Origin: Flavobacterium sp. 90
GTDB taxonomy: Bacteria; Bacteroidota; Bacteroidia; Flavobacteriales; Flavobacteriaceae
Assembly (NCBI RefSeq): GCF_004339525.1
Contig: NZ_SMGE01000001.1
Span: 5,704,001 to 5,768,000 of the forward strand
Length of the DNA stretch: 64,000 nt
Direction: 5' to 3'
A model generated the notes under the pieces. The model was given only the letters and a program-made list of their open reading frames with translations. It did not search any database and had not been told where the DNA came from. Positions 1 through 6,045 of this stretch are shown in pieces; positions within the stretch are counted from its first letter, which is position 1, and every line of letters starts with the position of its first letter. A program made the position numbers and the translations under genes.

Positions 1-632
1 TAATATTCCAGCGGAATTTTTGACTTCGCAGTTAATTCTGTTTTATCATATTTACCAATCGCAAGCATTGCCAGATAAGAACTCATTGGCTTCTCCATTT
101 CGTATTGCCATTGCGTTACGTCTCCATTTGCTGTTTTTTCCTTTAAGACTCCGTTTGAGATAACCTGATATTCTTTATTGAAAGTAATTCCGAAATTAAA
201 AATCAGTTTTTCGTTGACATCATCAAAACTCGGAAACCAATTACTCGTATATCTTCCCTGTCCTTGTGTCCAAATCTGAACTTCTGAATTTTCTATATTG
301 ATAAAATACAAAGCTTGTTTTGGTTTTGCCCAATAATCAAAAGTCAATACATTTTTTCCTTTCTGAAAATTATCAATAAGTTGTAATTCTTTACCTGTAT
401 TTACAAAATTGACTTCTTTTTGATTGATTCGGATTTTTGTAAATTCCATGTTTTTTGCATCAATTTTAATCGTATCAATTGGTTTCAAAACCTCAAACTG
501 ATATTCTACTGAACCGGCAATTGTTTTGTCCGATGTGTTTAATTTCAATTGCGCATTAACCGATTTGAAATCGACAAATTGAGTTTGTTGTGCAAAAATG
601 AAAGTGGTAAAAAATAGAAGAATATATTTCAT
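1..632 (-). CDS. M1 family metallopeptidase (aminopeptidase N-like), 5' part only
   Basis: The reverse strand reads from ATG at 632 to the window edge without a stop, giving about 210 residues. It starts with a short signal peptide (MKYILLFFTTFIFAQQ), so the protein is exported. The stretch QIWTQGQGRYTSNWFPSFDD around residues 135-155 is the characteristic N-terminal domain sequence of M1 (gluzincin) aminopeptidases. The catalytic HExxH zinc motif would lie beyond the window and cannot be checked. Its role would be to remove N-terminal amino acids from peptides in the periplasm or at the surface. The gene begins only 6 nt after the stop of the RAYT transposase gene on the same strand, so its promoter must lie in or upstream of that gene. 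Confidence 0.85.
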   Translation of the reverse strand, partial: MKYILLFFTTFIFAQQTQFVDFKSVNAQLKLNTSDKTIAGSVEYQFEVLKPIDTIKIDAKNMEFTKIRINQKEVNFVNTGKELQLIDNFQKGKNVLTFDYWAKPKQALYFINIENSEVQIWTQGQGRYTSNWFPSFDDVNEKLIFNFGITFNKEYQVISNGVLKEKTANGDVTQWQYEMEKPMSSYLAMLAIGKYDKTELTAKSKIPLEY

Positions 633-638
633 TGACGG

Positions 639-1559
639 TTAAAGTTTTATAGAATCCATTTCCCAAAGTCTTGGGTTGGTTTTTATATAATTATAAATAA
701 TTTCAAATCTTTTGTGATTTCGAACAATATGATCGTGATAATTGGATTGCCATATAGATTCGATTCCATTAATTTGTTTGGTTGTTACCGATTTAAATGC
801 CGCAACAAATGAAGATATTGAATTGGGTTTTCGTGACAATGTTGTGCTCAATGGATTTTGGTTGTCGTTTTCAATTCTACCATTTTTGTTTTCGTTTTTA
901 CGATTCATATTACTGATTTCAATTCCATCACAATTATCATGTAGAGGCGCACGGCAGTGCGTCTCGGCAATGTTTGTTCCATTGTTTGTGTTTTTATTTG
1001 TCGATATACTGGACGGAGACGCACTGCTGTGCGCCTCTACGATATGCGATCCTACAATATCTGTGTCGACGTTATACGCATTTACTGTGTCTAATCGATT
1101 TTCATTCTCATTTCTAATTCCATCCCAATTATCACGTAGAGGCGCACAGCAGTGCGTCTCGGCAATGTTTGACTCAATCTTTGTTTCAATGTTTGTTTCA
1201 ATGTTTGTGTTTTCATTTGTCGATATACTGGACGGAGACGCACTGCTGTGCGCCTCTACGATATCTGTGTCGATTATGGGAATTTGATTATTTTGAATTT
1301 CAATTAATAAATGAATATGATTGGGCATAACAACCCAATTATGGAAAAACCAATTTTTGCGAATTTTTATTGATTTTAAAAGCTCTGTTTCGATTATTTG
1401 TCCACTCTCATTCAAGATCATTTTATCATTCTTAATAGATCCAAAAATACATTCTCTGTTTTTTGCAACTAATGTAATAAAGTAAATTGCTTCACTCGAA
1501 TAATCCCAATTTTTCAATCTTTTAGAATCAATTTTATATTTATCTTTAAATAATGTCAT
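639..1559 (-). CDS. REP-associated tyrosine transposase (RAYT, IS200-like HUH family) with internal REP-derived insertion
   Basis: This 306-residue protein has the Y1 transposase fold seen in RAYTs: an N-terminal WDYSSEAIYFITL segment, the HUH motif in VVMPNHIHLLIEI (His81, His83), and a C-terminal part with SISSFVAAFKSVTTKQIN, YHDHIVRN (274-281) and YIKTNP (291-296). RAYTs are usually 150-200 residues. The excess is a low-complexity Asn/Ser/Thr-rich insert at about 97-235. It is made of two related copies encoded by DNA carrying inverted REP-like palindromes. Known RAYTs bind and move REP sequences as single-stranded DNA. The reading frame is open throughout, so the gene may still be functional, but an insert of this size could disturb folding. 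Confidence 0.85.
   Translation of the reverse strand: MTLFKDKYKIDSKRLKNWDYSSEAIYFITLVAKNRECIFGSIKNDKMILNESGQIIETELLKSIKIRKNWFFHNWVVMPNHIHLLIEIQNNQIPIIDTDIVEAHSSASPSSISTNENTNIETNIETKIESNIAETHCCAPLRDNWDGIRNENENRLDTVNAYNVDTDIVGSHIVEAHSSASPSSISTNKNTNNGTNIAETHCRAPLHDNCDGIEISNMNRKNENKNGRIENDNQNPLSTTLSRKPNSISSFVAAFKSVTTKQINGIESIWQSNYHDHIVRNHKRFEIIYNYIKTNPRLWEMDSIKL
941..1259. repeat. Two tandem modules, each holding an inverted pair of 25-bp REP-like palindromes
   Basis: A 25-bp sequence starting GTAGAGGCGCAC and ending GTGCGTCTC occurs four times: 941-965 and 1136-1160 in one orientation, 1016-1040 and 1235-1259 in the other. Each copy is itself an imperfect hairpin (GAGGCGCAC, short loop, GTGCGTCTC). 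Neighbouring copies face each other, as in a REPIN. The two modules are 195 bp apart (65 codons), so the duplication keeps the transposase frame. Three near-identical 12-mers (TTTCAATGTTTG type, about 1177-1215) expand the second module. Confidence 0.85.
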
Positions 1560-1649
1560 TTTTTGGCGTGTAAGAAATCCAAAGTTACAAAGGTTTCGTC
1601 AACAAATCGAACGAAATTTGTAAGTTTACCAACAGAAAATTACATTATC

Positions 1650-2402
1650 GTGTCAATACCCAAAAAAGCCATATTTAACTGGAGCAGCGGAAAAGATTCT
1701 GCACTTGCTTTGTATAAAATTTTACAAAATCCTGATTTTAAAATCGAATGTTTATTGACGAGTGTCAACCAACAATTCCGGCGTATTTCGATGCATGGCG
1801 TTCGTGTTGAATTACTTGAAAAACAGGCAACAAGTATTGGTTTACCTTTGAAAATTCTGCAAATTCCCGAAATGCCAACAATGGAAGTTTACGAAAATGT
1901 AATGACCAAAACCTTAACAGAATTAAAAGAACAAGGTATAACACATTCAATTTTTGGAGATATTTTTCTGGAAGATTTACGAAAATACCGTGAAGATCAA
2001 TTGGCTAAAATAGGATTTGAAGGCGTTTTTCCAATCTGGAAAGTCCCGACTCACGACTTGATACAGGAATTTATTTCCTTAGGATTCAAAACTATTGTGG
2101 TTTGTGTAAACGAGCGTTATCTTGATAAAAGCTTCGTTGGACGCGTAATTGATCAGAGTTTCATAAATGATCTACCTGAAAATGTAGATGTTTGTGGTGA
2201 AAACGGCGAATTTCATACTTTTACTTTTGATGGGCCAATTTTTTCGGAACCTATAAACTTTGAAATCGGAGAAATCGTTTATCGAAAATATGAAAAACCA
2301 AAAACAGAAAATTCTTCAAATACTGCTTGCGACACCAATTCTACTGATGCTTTTGATTACGGATTTTGGTATTATGATTTGATTCCTAAAAACGAAAAAT
2401 AG
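1650..2402 (+). CDS. PP-loop ATPase, diphthine--ammonia ligase family (COG2102)
   Basis: The protein carries the PP-loop AIFNWSSGKDSALALYKIL near its N-terminus (SSGKDS at residues 12-17), which binds ATP for adenylation. The rest (FGDIFLEDLRKYRE, CVNERYLDKSFVGR, VCGENGEFHTFTFDGPIF) is typical of the COG2102 family. The eukaryotic and archaeal members amidate diphthine on EF2. Bacteria lack diphthamide, so the bacterial substrate is unknown. I chose GTG at 1650 because family members start just before this segment. The frame is open back to a TTG at 1563, but those 29 residues look unlike coding sequence. It is divergent from the RAYT gene and converges with the DUF1697 gene. Confidence 0.75.
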   Translation: MSIPKKAIFNWSSGKDSALALYKILQNPDFKIECLLTSVNQQFRRISMHGVRVELLEKQATSIGLPLKILQIPEMPTMEVYENVMTKTLTELKEQGITHSIFGDIFLEDLRKYREDQLAKIGFEGVFPIWKVPTHDLIQEFISLGFKTIVVCVNERYLDKSFVGRVIDQSFINDLPENVDVCGENGEFHTFTFDGPIFSEPINFEIGEIVYRKYEKPKTENSSNTACDTNSTDAFDYGFWYYDLIPKNEK

Positions 2403-2404
2403 CC

Positions 2405-2451
2405 AATTAGATAATGAGATAATTTATAGAGAGTTCTAGAATTATCTAATT
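2405..2451. terminator. Inverted repeat between convergent genes, possible bidirectional terminator
   Basis: AATTAGATAAT at 2405-2415 is exactly complementary to ATTATCTAATT at 2441-2451. It lies between the stop codons of two convergent genes. The stem is AT-rich, the loop is long, and there is no clear U-tract. Confidence 0.35.
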
Positions 2452-2992
2452 ACTCAGCGTACATATTCAACAAATTAGTCACCGTATTCCAGTTTCTAAT
2501 TGTTGCTGTAACGTTTAGTTTTTTCTCAATATATTTTTGATCAAATCTTGTTTTTCCAGCGCCAACAGCATATTTAATAAAGATTCTGTTGCCGTCAATA
2601 CTAGCTTCATCAGGTTTAAACTGACTTATTTTTAAATCGTTGATGTTTTCGCTTTTTAGAGAAATCGAAACAAAAGCGACATATAGTTTTTTAGTGTCAA
2701 CTTCTTTTTCTTTTAAAAACGGACTGTTTTTAAAACATAATTCTAAATCTTCTTTTGTGATCACAATCGTAGGAACTTCGTGTCCAAAAACTTTAAAAAT
2801 TTCCTGTTTGATCATAAAACCAACTTTCGACGCACTTTCTTCATCAGTATCTACAAAAACATTTCCGGATTGAAGATATGTTCTCACATTTTTAAAACCA
2901 ATATTTTCTAACATTGCTTTCAAAGCTTCCATTTTCATCATATTGTGTCCCGAAACGTTGATTCCTCTTAAAAGTGCTAAATGTGTTGTCAT
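2450..2992 (-). CDS. DUF1697 family protein
   Basis: This 180-residue protein has the full family signature: HLALLRGINVSGHNMMKMEAL at the start, then GFKNVRTYLQSGNVFVDTDE and the C-terminal RNWNTVTNLLNMY. No signal peptide or membrane segment is present, so it is cytoplasmic. DUF1697 proteins are common in Bacteroidota and Firmicutes and have no established biochemical role. The length is usual for the family and nothing is truncated. The gene stands alone, with terminator-like hairpins on both sides. Confidence 0.85.
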   Translation of the reverse strand: MTTHLALLRGINVSGHNMMKMEALKAMLENIGFKNVRTYLQSGNVFVDTDEESASKVGFMIKQEIFKVFGHEVPTIVITKEDLELCFKNSPFLKEKEVDTKKLYVAFVSISLKSENINDLKISQFKPDEASIDGNRIFIKYAVGAGKTRFDQKYIEKKLNVTATIRNWNTVTNLLNMYAE

Positions 2993-3013
2993 TTTATTTT
3001 TTTATTTAAAAAC

Positions 3014-3048
3014 AAAAAGTATTCAATTTTAAAAATTGAATACTTTTT
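3014..3048 (-). terminator. Rho-independent terminator of the lipoprotein gene
   Basis: A 16-bp stem (AAAAAGTATTCAATTT with its complement) has a 3-nt loop and is followed on the reverse strand by a T-rich tract. It lies directly after the lipoprotein gene. Confidence 0.7.
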
Positions 3049-3073
3049 TTATTCTTTAGCAAATTTACGATTT

Positions 3074-3487
3074 TTATTTCGTTTTCTCGTATGTTGACTC
3101 AGCATCACACATACGCCCGTCATTGTCCAGAAGACCTGCTTTAGTTATCGTTAAAGTTTCTATTAAACTATTCGAACAATTTAATATTAGCATGTTATCA
3201 GTAGGATAAGTTAATTTTAAATTTGTTCCTATTTCGTTAGCCGAGACTTCAAATGTCCCTGATGCTGTTGTGGTTACGTTTCCGTGAATTCTGGTTTTTG
3301 TAAAAGTTTTATCTCTGTTAAATTTATAAGACTCTCTAAAAACATACGGGTTATCAATATCTTTCGCATCAACGACATTAATCCAATTTCCATAATAATT
3401 ATAAACGACAGGCTTATCATCTGAATCATGAGACGAACAAGAAATAGCAACAAACAGTACTGTAAATAAAAGTGCGGTTATTTTCAT
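3074..3487 (-). CDS. Hypothetical lipoprotein
   Basis: The 137-residue product starts with a type II signal peptide: a short basic start, a hydrophobic stretch, then the lipobox VAISC with Cys17 as the lipidation site. The mature part has a GNWINV segment near residue 33 and alternating polar and hydrophobic stretches (SYKFNRDKTFTKTRI, TASGTFEVSANEIGTNLKLTY). This fits a small beta-rich fold such as the lipocalin-like proteins common in Flavobacterium. I do not recognise the family firmly. It has its own terminator and no evident operon partner. Confidence 0.7.
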   Translation of the reverse strand: MKITALLFTVLFVAISCSSHDSDDKPVVYNYYGNWINVVDAKDIDNPYVFRESYKFNRDKTFTKTRIHGNVTTTASGTFEVSANEIGTNLKLTYPTDNMLILNCSNSLIETLTITKAGLLDNDGRMCDAESTYEKTK

Positions 3488-3737
3488 TTTTAAAAAGTTT
3501 TTTTTTAAGGTTACTATTATTAAGATTTCACTTTCTTAAAATGGTTGCGTCCTAACTTACTAAATTTACGATATTTGTATTCAATAATTTATGGCAAACA
3601 ATAGATTTTCAAATTTCCCAATTAAAATCTATCTTCGCTTTTCTAAAAAGAACAGATTATAGAACATAGAATATAGATAAAATTATACTGCTTGTTACTA
3701 TAATCTAAAGTCTAAAATCAAAAATCTAAAATAATTA

Positions 3738-5846
3738 ATGTCCTATAATCTCCTTGAAACTCAAATCGAATACTTAAAAGGTGTTGGTCCAAGTCGTGGT
3801 CAATTGCTTCGTAAGGAATTGGGGATTCATAAATATGGGGATTTAGTTAATTTTTTTCCGAATAGATATATTGACAGAACTCGTTATTATAAGATAAACG
3901 AACTTCAAAATACGGGTTCAGAAGTTCAGATTATTGGGAAAATCATCAACATAAAAACGGTTGAATTTGCCAAAAACAAAAAACGTCTTGTAGCTACTTT
4001 CGTGGATGATACGGGACAAATGGACTTAAACTGGTTTCAGGGACATAAATGGGTTCGTGAAAGTTTAAAGCTGAATGAAGTGTGTGTGATTTTTGGAAAA
4101 TGTTCCCTTTACGGAAGTCAGTTTAGTATGGCGCATCCGGAAATTGAGTTGTTTAGCGAGCATGAAAAAAGTCTTCGTTCTGCCATGCAGCCTGTTTATC
4201 CTTCGACCGAAACTCTAGCAAACAGAGGAATTTCAAATCGAACGATTAACAAGATAATGGAGCAATTGTTTATTGAAACTCAAGCTTTATTCACAGAAAC
4301 ATTTCCACCTTATTTGATCGCTGAGCTAAATTTAATGTCCAAAAGAGCGGCATTATTCAACATACATTTTCCTAAAAGCACTGAGATTTTAGCAAAAGCC
4401 CAATTCCGACTTAAATTTGAAGAATTGTTCTTTATTCAGTTGCAATTAATTACCAAAAATCTGATCAGGAAACATAAAATAAAAGGGCATCCATTTTCAA
4501 AAGTGGGTGAATTTTTCGGTGAGTTTTATCAGAATCATTTGCCTTTTGAGCTTACAAATGCACAAAAGAGAGTTATCAAAGAAATCCGTTCAGATATGGG
4601 CAGTAATGCTCAAATGAACCGTTTATTGCAAGGTGATGTTGGTTCAGGAAAAACTATTGTGGCTTTTATGAGTATGCTTCTGGCAATGGATAATGGTTTT
4701 CAGGCTTGTTTAATGGCGCCGACAGAAATTCTCGCTAATCAACATTTTATTGGTTTGTCAGAATTAGCAGAAACCTTAAATATAAATATCAAAATACTTA
4801 CGGGTTCAACTAAAACTTCGGCTCGAAAAATCATTCACGAAGAACTTGAAAACGGAACTTTAAATATCTTAATTGGAACGCACGCTTTACTCGAAGACAA
4901 AGTAAAGTTCCTTAATCTGGGCTTGGCGGTAATCGATGAGCAACATAGATTTGGCGTAGAACAACGTTCTAAATTATGGAAGAAAAACGAGATTCCTCCA
5001 CACGTTTTGGTGATGACCGCCACCCCTATTCCGCGAACTTTGGCAATGAGTTTATACGGTGACCTGGATATTTCGGTAATTGATGAATTGCCACCTGGTC
5101 GAAAACCTATTCAAACTGTGCATCGTTTTGACAGTAATCGTTTGAAGGTTTGGAAATTTCTAAGAGATGAAATCGCTCTTGGAAGACAAATTTATATCGT
5201 TTATCCGTTGATTCAGGAATCAGAAAAAATGGATTACAAGGATTTAATGGACGGTTACGAAAGTATTTCTCGTGATTTTCCGTTGCCTCAATATTCGATT
5301 TCAATCTTACACGGAAAAATGAAACCCGCTGATAAAGATGCCGAAATGAAACGCTTTTCTGAAGGCAAAACCAATATAATGGTCGCAACAACTGTAATCG
5401 AAGTTGGTGTAAATGTGCCAAATGCGAGTGTAATGATTATCGAAAGTGCGGAACGTTTTGGATTGTCTCAGCTTCACCAATTACGAGGTCGTGTTGGTCG
5501 TGGCGCTGAACAGAGTTATTGTATCTTAATGACAAGCCACAAATTAAGTGCCGACAGCAAAACCCGAATGGAAACGATGGTTCAGACGAATGATGGTTTC
5601 GAAATTGCCGAAGTTGACCTAAAACTTCGTGGTCCCGGAGATTTAATGGGAACGCAACAAAGTGGTGTTTTAAACCTTCAAATTGCAGATATTGTCCGTG
5701 ATCGTGATATCCTGAGTCTTGCCCGAAATTATGCCATGAAAATTCTTAAAGAAGATGGTCCGCTGCAAAAACCGGAACACGCGGTTTTGAAAGCTGTATT
5801 TCTTGAGCTGACTAAAAAGAAAAGTATCTGGAATTATATTAGTTAA
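3738..5846 (+). CDS. recG: ATP-dependent DNA helicase RecG
   Basis: The 702-residue protein is full length for RecG, the SF2 helicase that remodels stalled forks and branch-migrates Holliday junctions. The N-terminal wedge/OB-fold region is at about 60-150 (LNWFQGHKW). Helicase motifs follow: Walker A GDVGSGKT at 299-306, DEQH box starting at residue 400, MTATPIPRT soon after, and QLRGRVGRG at about 580. The RecG C-terminal motif GPGDLMGTQQSG is present. The start ATG follows an A/T-rich leader made of short repeats of the CTAAAATCAAAAATCTAAAA kind. Confidence 0.97.
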   Translation: MSYNLLETQIEYLKGVGPSRGQLLRKELGIHKYGDLVNFFPNRYIDRTRYYKINELQNTGSEVQIIGKIINIKTVEFAKNKKRLVATFVDDTGQMDLNWFQGHKWVRESLKLNEVCVIFGKCSLYGSQFSMAHPEIELFSEHEKSLRSAMQPVYPSTETLANRGISNRTINKIMEQLFIETQALFTETFPPYLIAELNLMSKRAALFNIHFPKSTEILAKAQFRLKFEELFFIQLQLITKNLIRKHKIKGHPFSKVGEFFGEFYQNHLPFELTNAQKRVIKEIRSDMGSNAQMNRLLQGDVGSGKTIVAFMSMLLAMDNGFQACLMAPTEILANQHFIGLSELAETLNINIKILTGSTKTSARKIIHEELENGTLNILIGTHALLEDKVKFLNLGLAVIDEQHRFGVEQRSKLWKKNEIPPHVLVMTATPIPRTLAMSLYGDLDISVIDELPPGRKPIQTVHRFDSNRLKVWKFLRDEIALGRQIYIVYPLIQESEKMDYKDLMDGYESISRDFPLPQYSISILHGKMKPADKDAEMKRFSEGKTNIMVATTVIEVGVNVPNASVMIIESAERFGLSQLHQLRGRVGRGAEQSYCILMTSHKLSADSKTRMETMVQTNDGFEIAEVDLKLRGPGDLMGTQQSGVLNLQIADIVRDRDILSLARNYAMKILKEDGPLQKPEHAVLKAVFLELTKKKSIWNYIS

Positions 5847-5900
5847 TTCTTCTTAAGGTTCTGAGGGACTGAGGTTCTAAGGTACTAAGTTTTTTTTCAA

Positions 5901-5988
5901 TATTGTCATTTCGAAGAACGAGACCCGAGCGATAGCGAACAGACGGAGTAAATCTTCGCTAGAAACTCGACAAAGATTGGTGACAATA
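5901..5988. repeat. Short intergenic element with 8-bp terminal inverted repeats
   Basis: The 88-bp stretch starts with TATTGTCA and ends with TGACAATA, an exact 8-bp inverted pair. It contains the GAACGAGACCCGAGCGATAG and CTCGACAAAGATTGG type sequence that is scattered between genes of Flavobacterium genomes. It looks like a miniature non-autonomous repeat. No coding capacity is evident. Confidence 0.5.
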
Positions 5989-5991
5989 TAG

Positions 5992-6045
5992 AACGCGGAT
6001 GACGCGGATTCGCTTTGCGAAAACACAGATTAAAACGGATTTTCA
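5992..6045. repeat. Dispersed intergenic repeat (GCGGATTCGCTTTGCGAAAAC type), copy 1
   Basis: GCGGATTCGCTTTGCGAAAA followed by CAGATTAAAACGGATTTTCA resembles, in reverse orientation, the sequence at about 35,070-35,150. The core TTCGC..GCGAA is a small palindrome. Both copies lie in spacers without genes. Confidence 0.5.

Follow-up and report, generated by a model that had tools for sequence, protein, structure and literature searches.

Why would the gene of an enzyme that acts on small genomic repeats hold those repeats within its own reading frame? The question is raised by a 64,000-nucleotide stretch of Flavobacterium sp. 90 (contig NZ_SMGE01000001.1; positions 5704001-5768000 of the closed 6.65-Mb genome), hereafter the window, in which the open reading frame (ORF) of a REP-associated tyrosine transposase (RAYT) contains four 25-bp repetitive extragenic palindromic (REP) units. 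An earlier interpretation, made from the letters alone (the sequence-only reading), had proposed that the repeats inserted into the gene of the enzyme that mobilises them and were then duplicated, and that they could be self-targeting, autoregulatory or a stage in decay. Our analysis suggests that the in-gene REPs may be a permanent, built-in cognate site of the enzyme and likely the seed of the REPs found elsewhere in the genome; we put the probability of this reading, which was reached by sequence comparison, at about 0.5.

The sections of PMC8266576 cited here report that the E. coli TnpAREP recognises single-stranded REP DNA and cuts nearby, as has been shown for other such enzymes, and that activity is decided by GTAG and, in some enzymes, by the loop. 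REPs inside a RAYT gene are not new. As described in the cited sections of Quentin et al. 2018 (PMC6006769), tnpAREP genes of subclass 2.4 hold in-frame REPs between HuH and Y, typically so and uniquely among the subclasses; this rules out any novelty for a REP inside a RAYT gene, and it overturns, for subclass 2.4, the sequence-only statement that internal REPs are normally absent from RAYTs. With REPs in the gene, in frame, between HUH and Y, the window gene is a further case of this known kind, probably of subclass 2.4 (group 4 of Bertels). Its distinguishing features are the duplication of the pair, to four units, and the lack of a flanking unit in the window.

A duplicated REP pair in an intact RAYT gene

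The proposed pairs and their frame were confirmed: the four units form two inverted pairs in the linker of an uninterrupted 306-aa ORF (Table 1), and in 100 shuffles of the window the expected number of chance matches to the unit was 0. With GTAG ends outward and spacers of 50 and 74 nt, the pairs qualify as REPINs, which the cited part of Bertels and Rainey 2011 (PMC3116915) describes as two inverted REPs with a short spacer; here, unlike in a REPIN, the pair lies inside the ORF of the enzyme, in frame. Each unit alone forms an imperfect hairpin, with a G-T or A-C pair in the stem, and complementarity between the inverted partners is 96-100%. The internal duplication of the pairs was also correctly called, with 96% identity over 78 nt and 84% over 81 nt, the window gene being a variant with a duplicated in-gene REP pair. 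The distance of 195 bp first stated for the pairs as a whole holds for the outer units (941 to 1136); owing to the unequal spacers, the inner units are separated by 219 bp (1016 to 1235). Both distances are multiples of 3.

The identification as a RAYT-type HUH enzyme was right. Against NF047646 (REP_Tyr_transpos) the protein scored 63.6 bits (cut-off 80), with the match split in two by the linker, and against PF01797 it scored 25.3 bits (cut-off 23), which fell to 21.8 bits, below the cut-off, when the whole genome was searched. The REP pairs are preceded by MPNHIHLL and followed by YIKTNP, and the reading frame is unbroken. From the subclass 2.4 signature (NH[IFV]H, WQ, YIxNNP) NHIH and IWQ are present, and the tyrosine motif reads YIKTNP, the majority form in alignment A1 (27 proteins) being YIKNNP. 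We take this motif to have the catalytic role that it has in the RAYT family. The AlphaFold2 model (mean pLDDT 52.7) gave 70-93 for most of the core and less than 50 for residues 99-241, which lie between a strand (81-88) and a helix (248-264). No PDB sequence matched the RAYT family profile at E up to 0.01, and no Rfam match was found in positions 1-6000 of the window. As in IS200/IS605, an HUH/Y1 enzyme goes together with hairpins on which it would act, but here the hairpins are inside the ORF rather than at element ends, and NF033573 gave 19.7 bits against a cut-off of 55.

Table 1. Features of the RAYT gene, in window coordinates
Feature	Position	Strand	Remarks
RAYT (REP-associated tyrosine transposase) gene, 306 aa	639..1559	-	intact ORF; NF047646 (under its cut-off) and PF01797 matches
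HUH motif NHIH, residues 80-83	1311..1322	-	N80, H81 and H83 invariant in alignment A1 (27 proteins)
REP unit 1, GTAG-first on coding strand, encodes VEAHSSAS	1235..1259	-	
REP unit 2, inverted (CTAC end in gene sense), encodes ETHCCAPL	1136..1160	+	
REP unit 3, GTAG-first on coding strand, encodes VEAHSSAS	1016..1040	-	
REP unit 4, inverted, one mismatch, encodes ETHCRAPL	941..965	+	
Internal duplication of REPIN-like unit (1116-1264 and 921-1045)	921..1264	-	direct repeats D1, D2
Linker, predicted disordered, residues 99-241	837..1265	-	AlphaFold2 pLDDT <50
Tyrosine motif YIKTNP, residues 291-296	672..689	-	Y291, I292, N295 and P296 invariant in alignment A1 (27 proteins)

Antisense to the RAYT gene lies a 181-aa ORF (window 742-1287, plus strand), whose only Pfam match is below the cut-off and which is probably due to chance.

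The REP family in the genome

A search of the genome with the 25-mer, which the sequence-only reading had called for, revealed a real REP family associated with the RAYT gene: at up to 3 mismatches there are 102 copies in the 6.65 Mb (56 forward, 46 reverse), and none in a reversed-sequence control. Together with the shuffles, these 102 copies rule out a chance origin of the units. The four in the gene are the only copies in the window, and the probability that at least four of 102 randomly placed copies would fall within this 921-bp ORF is about 1.5e-9. In a sample of 30 of the 102 copies, three were in the RAYT ORF, and the other 27 were covered by no ORF of more than 111 aa. The cited part of Di Nocera et al. 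2013 (PMC3733652) deals with intragenic REPs in other genes. Like the window units, these REPs and the Rickettsia palindromic elements are in-frame palindromic units that encode 20-30 residues, but the Rickettsia-type palindromes occupy many unrelated genes. Five other copies (L024-L028, at about 111619-112463 of the genome) point the same way at intervals of about 195-230 bp and have similar flanks, forming a tandem array of a longer unit.

REP units in close relatives

We searched 299 genomes of the genus for RAYT genes, with matches in 103, and took the 30 best loci, L036-L065, among them that of the window, as the close set, or clade A. In all 30, the linker that joins the HUH motif to SRKPNSISSFVA has at least one REP unit. 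This rules out an insert special to the window gene, one outcome that the sequence-only reading had left to an alignment of close RAYTs, and its claim that REPs had inserted into this particular gene is unsupported. One frame is shared by 64 of the 68 units; the other four (in L045, L054, L057 and L060) are in a different frame in a second linker, before IWQSNYHDHI, of genes that also have units in the first. Up to 1.3 kb upstream of the RAYT gene, L048 (genome G091) has a long array of TGCT- and TGCG-loop REPs that alternate in opposite orientations.

Broken genes occur at three of the 30 close loci (L058, L062 and L065), which were left out of A1 and of the dN/dS set. In L058 (G238) the RAYT frame ends at ORF position 423, at a stop codon that overlaps the foot of a second REP unit. 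Such loci are what would be expected if a dying transposase gene were being broken by its own repeats. The core of the window gene, in contrast, has dN/dS of 0.05-0.21 (dS 0.47-2.43) against 26 orthologues, with its core motifs intact; it is evidently under purifying selection, and we consider the suggested stage in decay very improbable.

The main rival to a built-in site is close to the view taken in the cited sections of Quentin et al. 2018 (PMC6006769), where internal REPs are treated as insertions. Local activity of the enzyme would often land REPs in or near the RAYT gene, and only those in a flexible linker would survive, the protein remaining unbroken. This would suit a linker that is variable and predicted to be disordered, the units in the second linker of four loci, the occurrence of flanking hairpins and arrays (e.g. 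L048), and the REP-associated stop that ends L058. It fits poorly with the presence of a unit in all 30 close loci and with the 27 sampled copies of the window's own genome that lie in no other long ORF. Three further results against it follow: the REP codons are nearly fixed, the stem changes in step with the enzyme clade, and there is a single copy or a single locus in genomes where no other copy was detected. We regard tolerated insertion as somewhat unlikely.

Conservation of the insert as nucleic acid

Codon choice within the REPs differs from that elsewhere in the same ORFs: Glu is encoded by GAG in 62 of 63 cases (82/429 elsewhere), His by CAC in 60 of 61 (78/248 elsewhere) and Ala by GCG in 68 of 78 (42/154 elsewhere). 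Despite core dS values to the window gene that span the range given above, the REP codons are all but fixed. Paired stem changes inside genes were seen in L088 relative to L090, L091 and L094, in L080 and L085 relative to the other E genes, and in all four units of L040, whose stem also occurs at 5 other places in its genome. Hairpin codon counts in the A-TGCA set (90/90) were not used, since the rows had been selected by exact match; nor did pairing counts on automatically chosen 28-mers serve as a test, these having been selected for pairing, and several being AT-rich junk.

Could the encoded linker peptide be what is selected? A nearly constant frame (64/68), and the recurrence of VET at the start of many units, would be in keeping with this. 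The peptide, however, is wholly different between stem families (VETHCSAS, EPHGRAVL, VETGLKPVC, ETRLIASL, VETGHALSLP) while the pairing stays, and synonymous positions are as fixed as others, so a peptide function is hardly credible. The sequence-only reading had named an ordinary protein linker in all homologues as the finding that would defeat it. The insert is indeed clade-wide, but it appears to be conserved as DNA rather than as peptide.

Hairpins and enzymes across the genus and beyond

To 40 more distant RAYT loci of the genus, part of those listed by the 299-genome search, we applied a strict hairpin rule (at least 8 perfect pairs, loop of 3-8). A linker hairpin was found in 32 of the 40, against none in 38 other ORFs of the window (45 kb). 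The remaining eight comprise L074, which has a near-perfect palindrome in the gene; L081, L087, L093, L095 and L101, with GTAG-type hairpins in their flanks; L077, which is hidden by a sequence gap; and L070, which has neither a linker nor a flanking hairpin. Beyond the close and distant sets, a linker hairpin was also found in 53 of 79 further loci that have an ORF (L184, without one, was left out). Of loci from Flavobacterium and its family 18 of 22 have a hairpin, several being from genomes already in the 299-genome search; so do 35 of 57 others, with titles that include Bacteroidales, Ignavibacteria, Chlorobiota, Chloroflexi, cyanobacteria, Patescibacteria and more, most being metagenome bins whose names are less sure. 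Both counts (32/40 and 53/79) are conservative, because the strict rule misses the window gene and passes only 21 of 29 clade-A ORFs. The linker of L104 (G028) contains a hairpin-bearing 16-codon unit (ETRLIASNNIESIDNK) in roughly a dozen tandem copies, in an ORF of about 361 aa.

The genus has at least eight stem families. On an enzyme tree of 68 core sequences (L065 has no usable ORF; L058 and L062 were left out), stem type required 16 changes for 14 groups, the least possible being 13; shuffled types gave a mean of 39.9, and none of 200 shuffles was as low. Single placements in the tree are unsure, because 29 of the 65 inner forks are left open and L105 sits on a long branch. Taken as a whole, the hairpin stem differs between enzyme clades together with the enzyme.

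The RAYT gene as the only detected site

Loop types were counted in 40 genomes. In 11 genomes (G146, G036, five B-type and four G-type) every detected copy falls within the RAYT gene. The 22-mer, searched at up to 3 mismatches, occurs once in G146 and twice in G036, as the in-gene units (for G036 this placement rests on the total of 2). With up to 1 mismatch of 18 allowed, the B stem is present as one copy in each of the five B-type genomes and absent from the other 29 of 34 searched; the G stem is present as one copy in each of four genomes and absent from the other 30 of 34. All nine of these places are inside the RAYT gene. G091, which has a G-type gene, was not matched by the G stem because its own stem carries paired changes. 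The E stem was found in all 11 E-type genomes and one of the other 23, and in five of the 11 (G057, G049, G109, G083 and G276) every match is in the RAYT gene or 11-311 bp from it. The hairpin can therefore be the gene's private copy, and the self-targeting option raised by the sequence-only reading gains from the genomes in which the RAYT gene holds the only detected copies. In the literature covered we found no genome reported to have its in-gene REP as the sole copy; since the supplement of PMC6006769 and the 2017 RAYT survey (Bertels and others) were not covered, we claim no novelty on this point.

An intact, conserved gene with the only detected copies would also be compatible with autoregulation, in which expression would be limited by the RAYT itself, or by a host factor, through action on the hairpin, either in the RAYT mRNA or in the gene's single-stranded DNA, and the genomic REPs would be a by-product. 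The in-gene units fold strongly as RNA (z -12.2), a result that does not decide between readings because any inverted repeats would give such a fold. A position in the middle of the ORF would be unusual for an mRNA operator, and we know of no RNA binding by RAYTs, which also counts against this explanation. Autoregulation comes next after tolerated insertion among the rivals, and we judge it improbable.

Where other copies do exist, they resemble the in-gene one. In 25 of 27 genomes with at least 3 other copies, the in-gene loop letter is that of the main type among the other genomic copies (G036, G146 and G110, with fewer than 3, were left out); shuffled loop letters gave a mean of 10.2 matches and a maximum of 19, and 0 of 10,000 shuffles reached 25.

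Discussion

We propose that the four in-gene units are the enzyme's own recognition site, kept in frame within a linker predicted to be disordered, where selection would act on the DNA or RNA hairpin and not on the peptide. By analogy with the E. coli TnpAREP and its REP, the enzyme would bind the in-gene copy as single-stranded DNA; it may then copy the unit outward, so that the scattered genomic REPs would have been seeded by the in-gene copy and kept in register with it. As a single gene that cannot be split, enzyme and substrate would travel together and evolve together. The gene is conserved even where no other copy was detected, which makes it more probable that the hairpin is a lasting component of the gene than that it came in from a repeat population, and genomic REP families appear more likely to be progeny of the in-gene copy. 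It is possible, though we hold it doubtful, that the hairpin was gene-first, i.e., that each RAYT lineage encodes its own substrate in its own ORF under nucleotide-level selection and that the genomic REP families are escapees.

Several points weigh against a built-in site that seeds the genomic REPs. The single-copy counts depend on the mismatch limits, and worn copies beyond those limits, which were not searched for, may exist. The codon test took REPs by their match to a consensus, a choice that favours fixed codons, and in the single-copy clades the excess of identical same-residue codons is modest (B, 71/78 vs 1208/1520; G, 45/48 vs 761/935; pairs not independent). The loop letter is mismatched in G102 and G187, and G015 is a near tie (13 vs 12). 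The tree holds only 6 loop-type changes, and the 3 independent pairs that it offers, of which 1 is on starred branches, do not suffice to test co-change, so that shared ancestry could give most of the loop match. In G004 (contigs C1-C34) there are 40 TGCG-type REPs and no RAYT of this family was matched, nor was a RAYT motif found near the REPs in 7 fetched stretches; REPs can thus exist without a detected enzyme. Finally, the in-gene spacer was not found beside other genomic copies (27 loci shown), so there is no direct trace of seeding from the window gene.

Where the built-in reading goes beyond the known subclass 2.4 genes is in the genomes with the in-gene unit as the only detected copy and in the codon-level conservation, neither of which is in the cited sections of PMC6006769. 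The matter bears on why RAYT genes, which spread non-autonomous repeats, are themselves maintained as single genes. If the gene carries its cognate hairpin as a constant component, in some genomes the only copy, the enzyme would be kept even where no repeat population was detected, and one could test whether the gene came first and the repeats later. If the hairpin was indeed gene-first, RAYT and REP would be inseparable by gene transfer, and a "repeat" could exist as a single copy. The at least eight stem families of this one genus offer a natural set of enzyme and substrate pairs from which the recognition code may be read.
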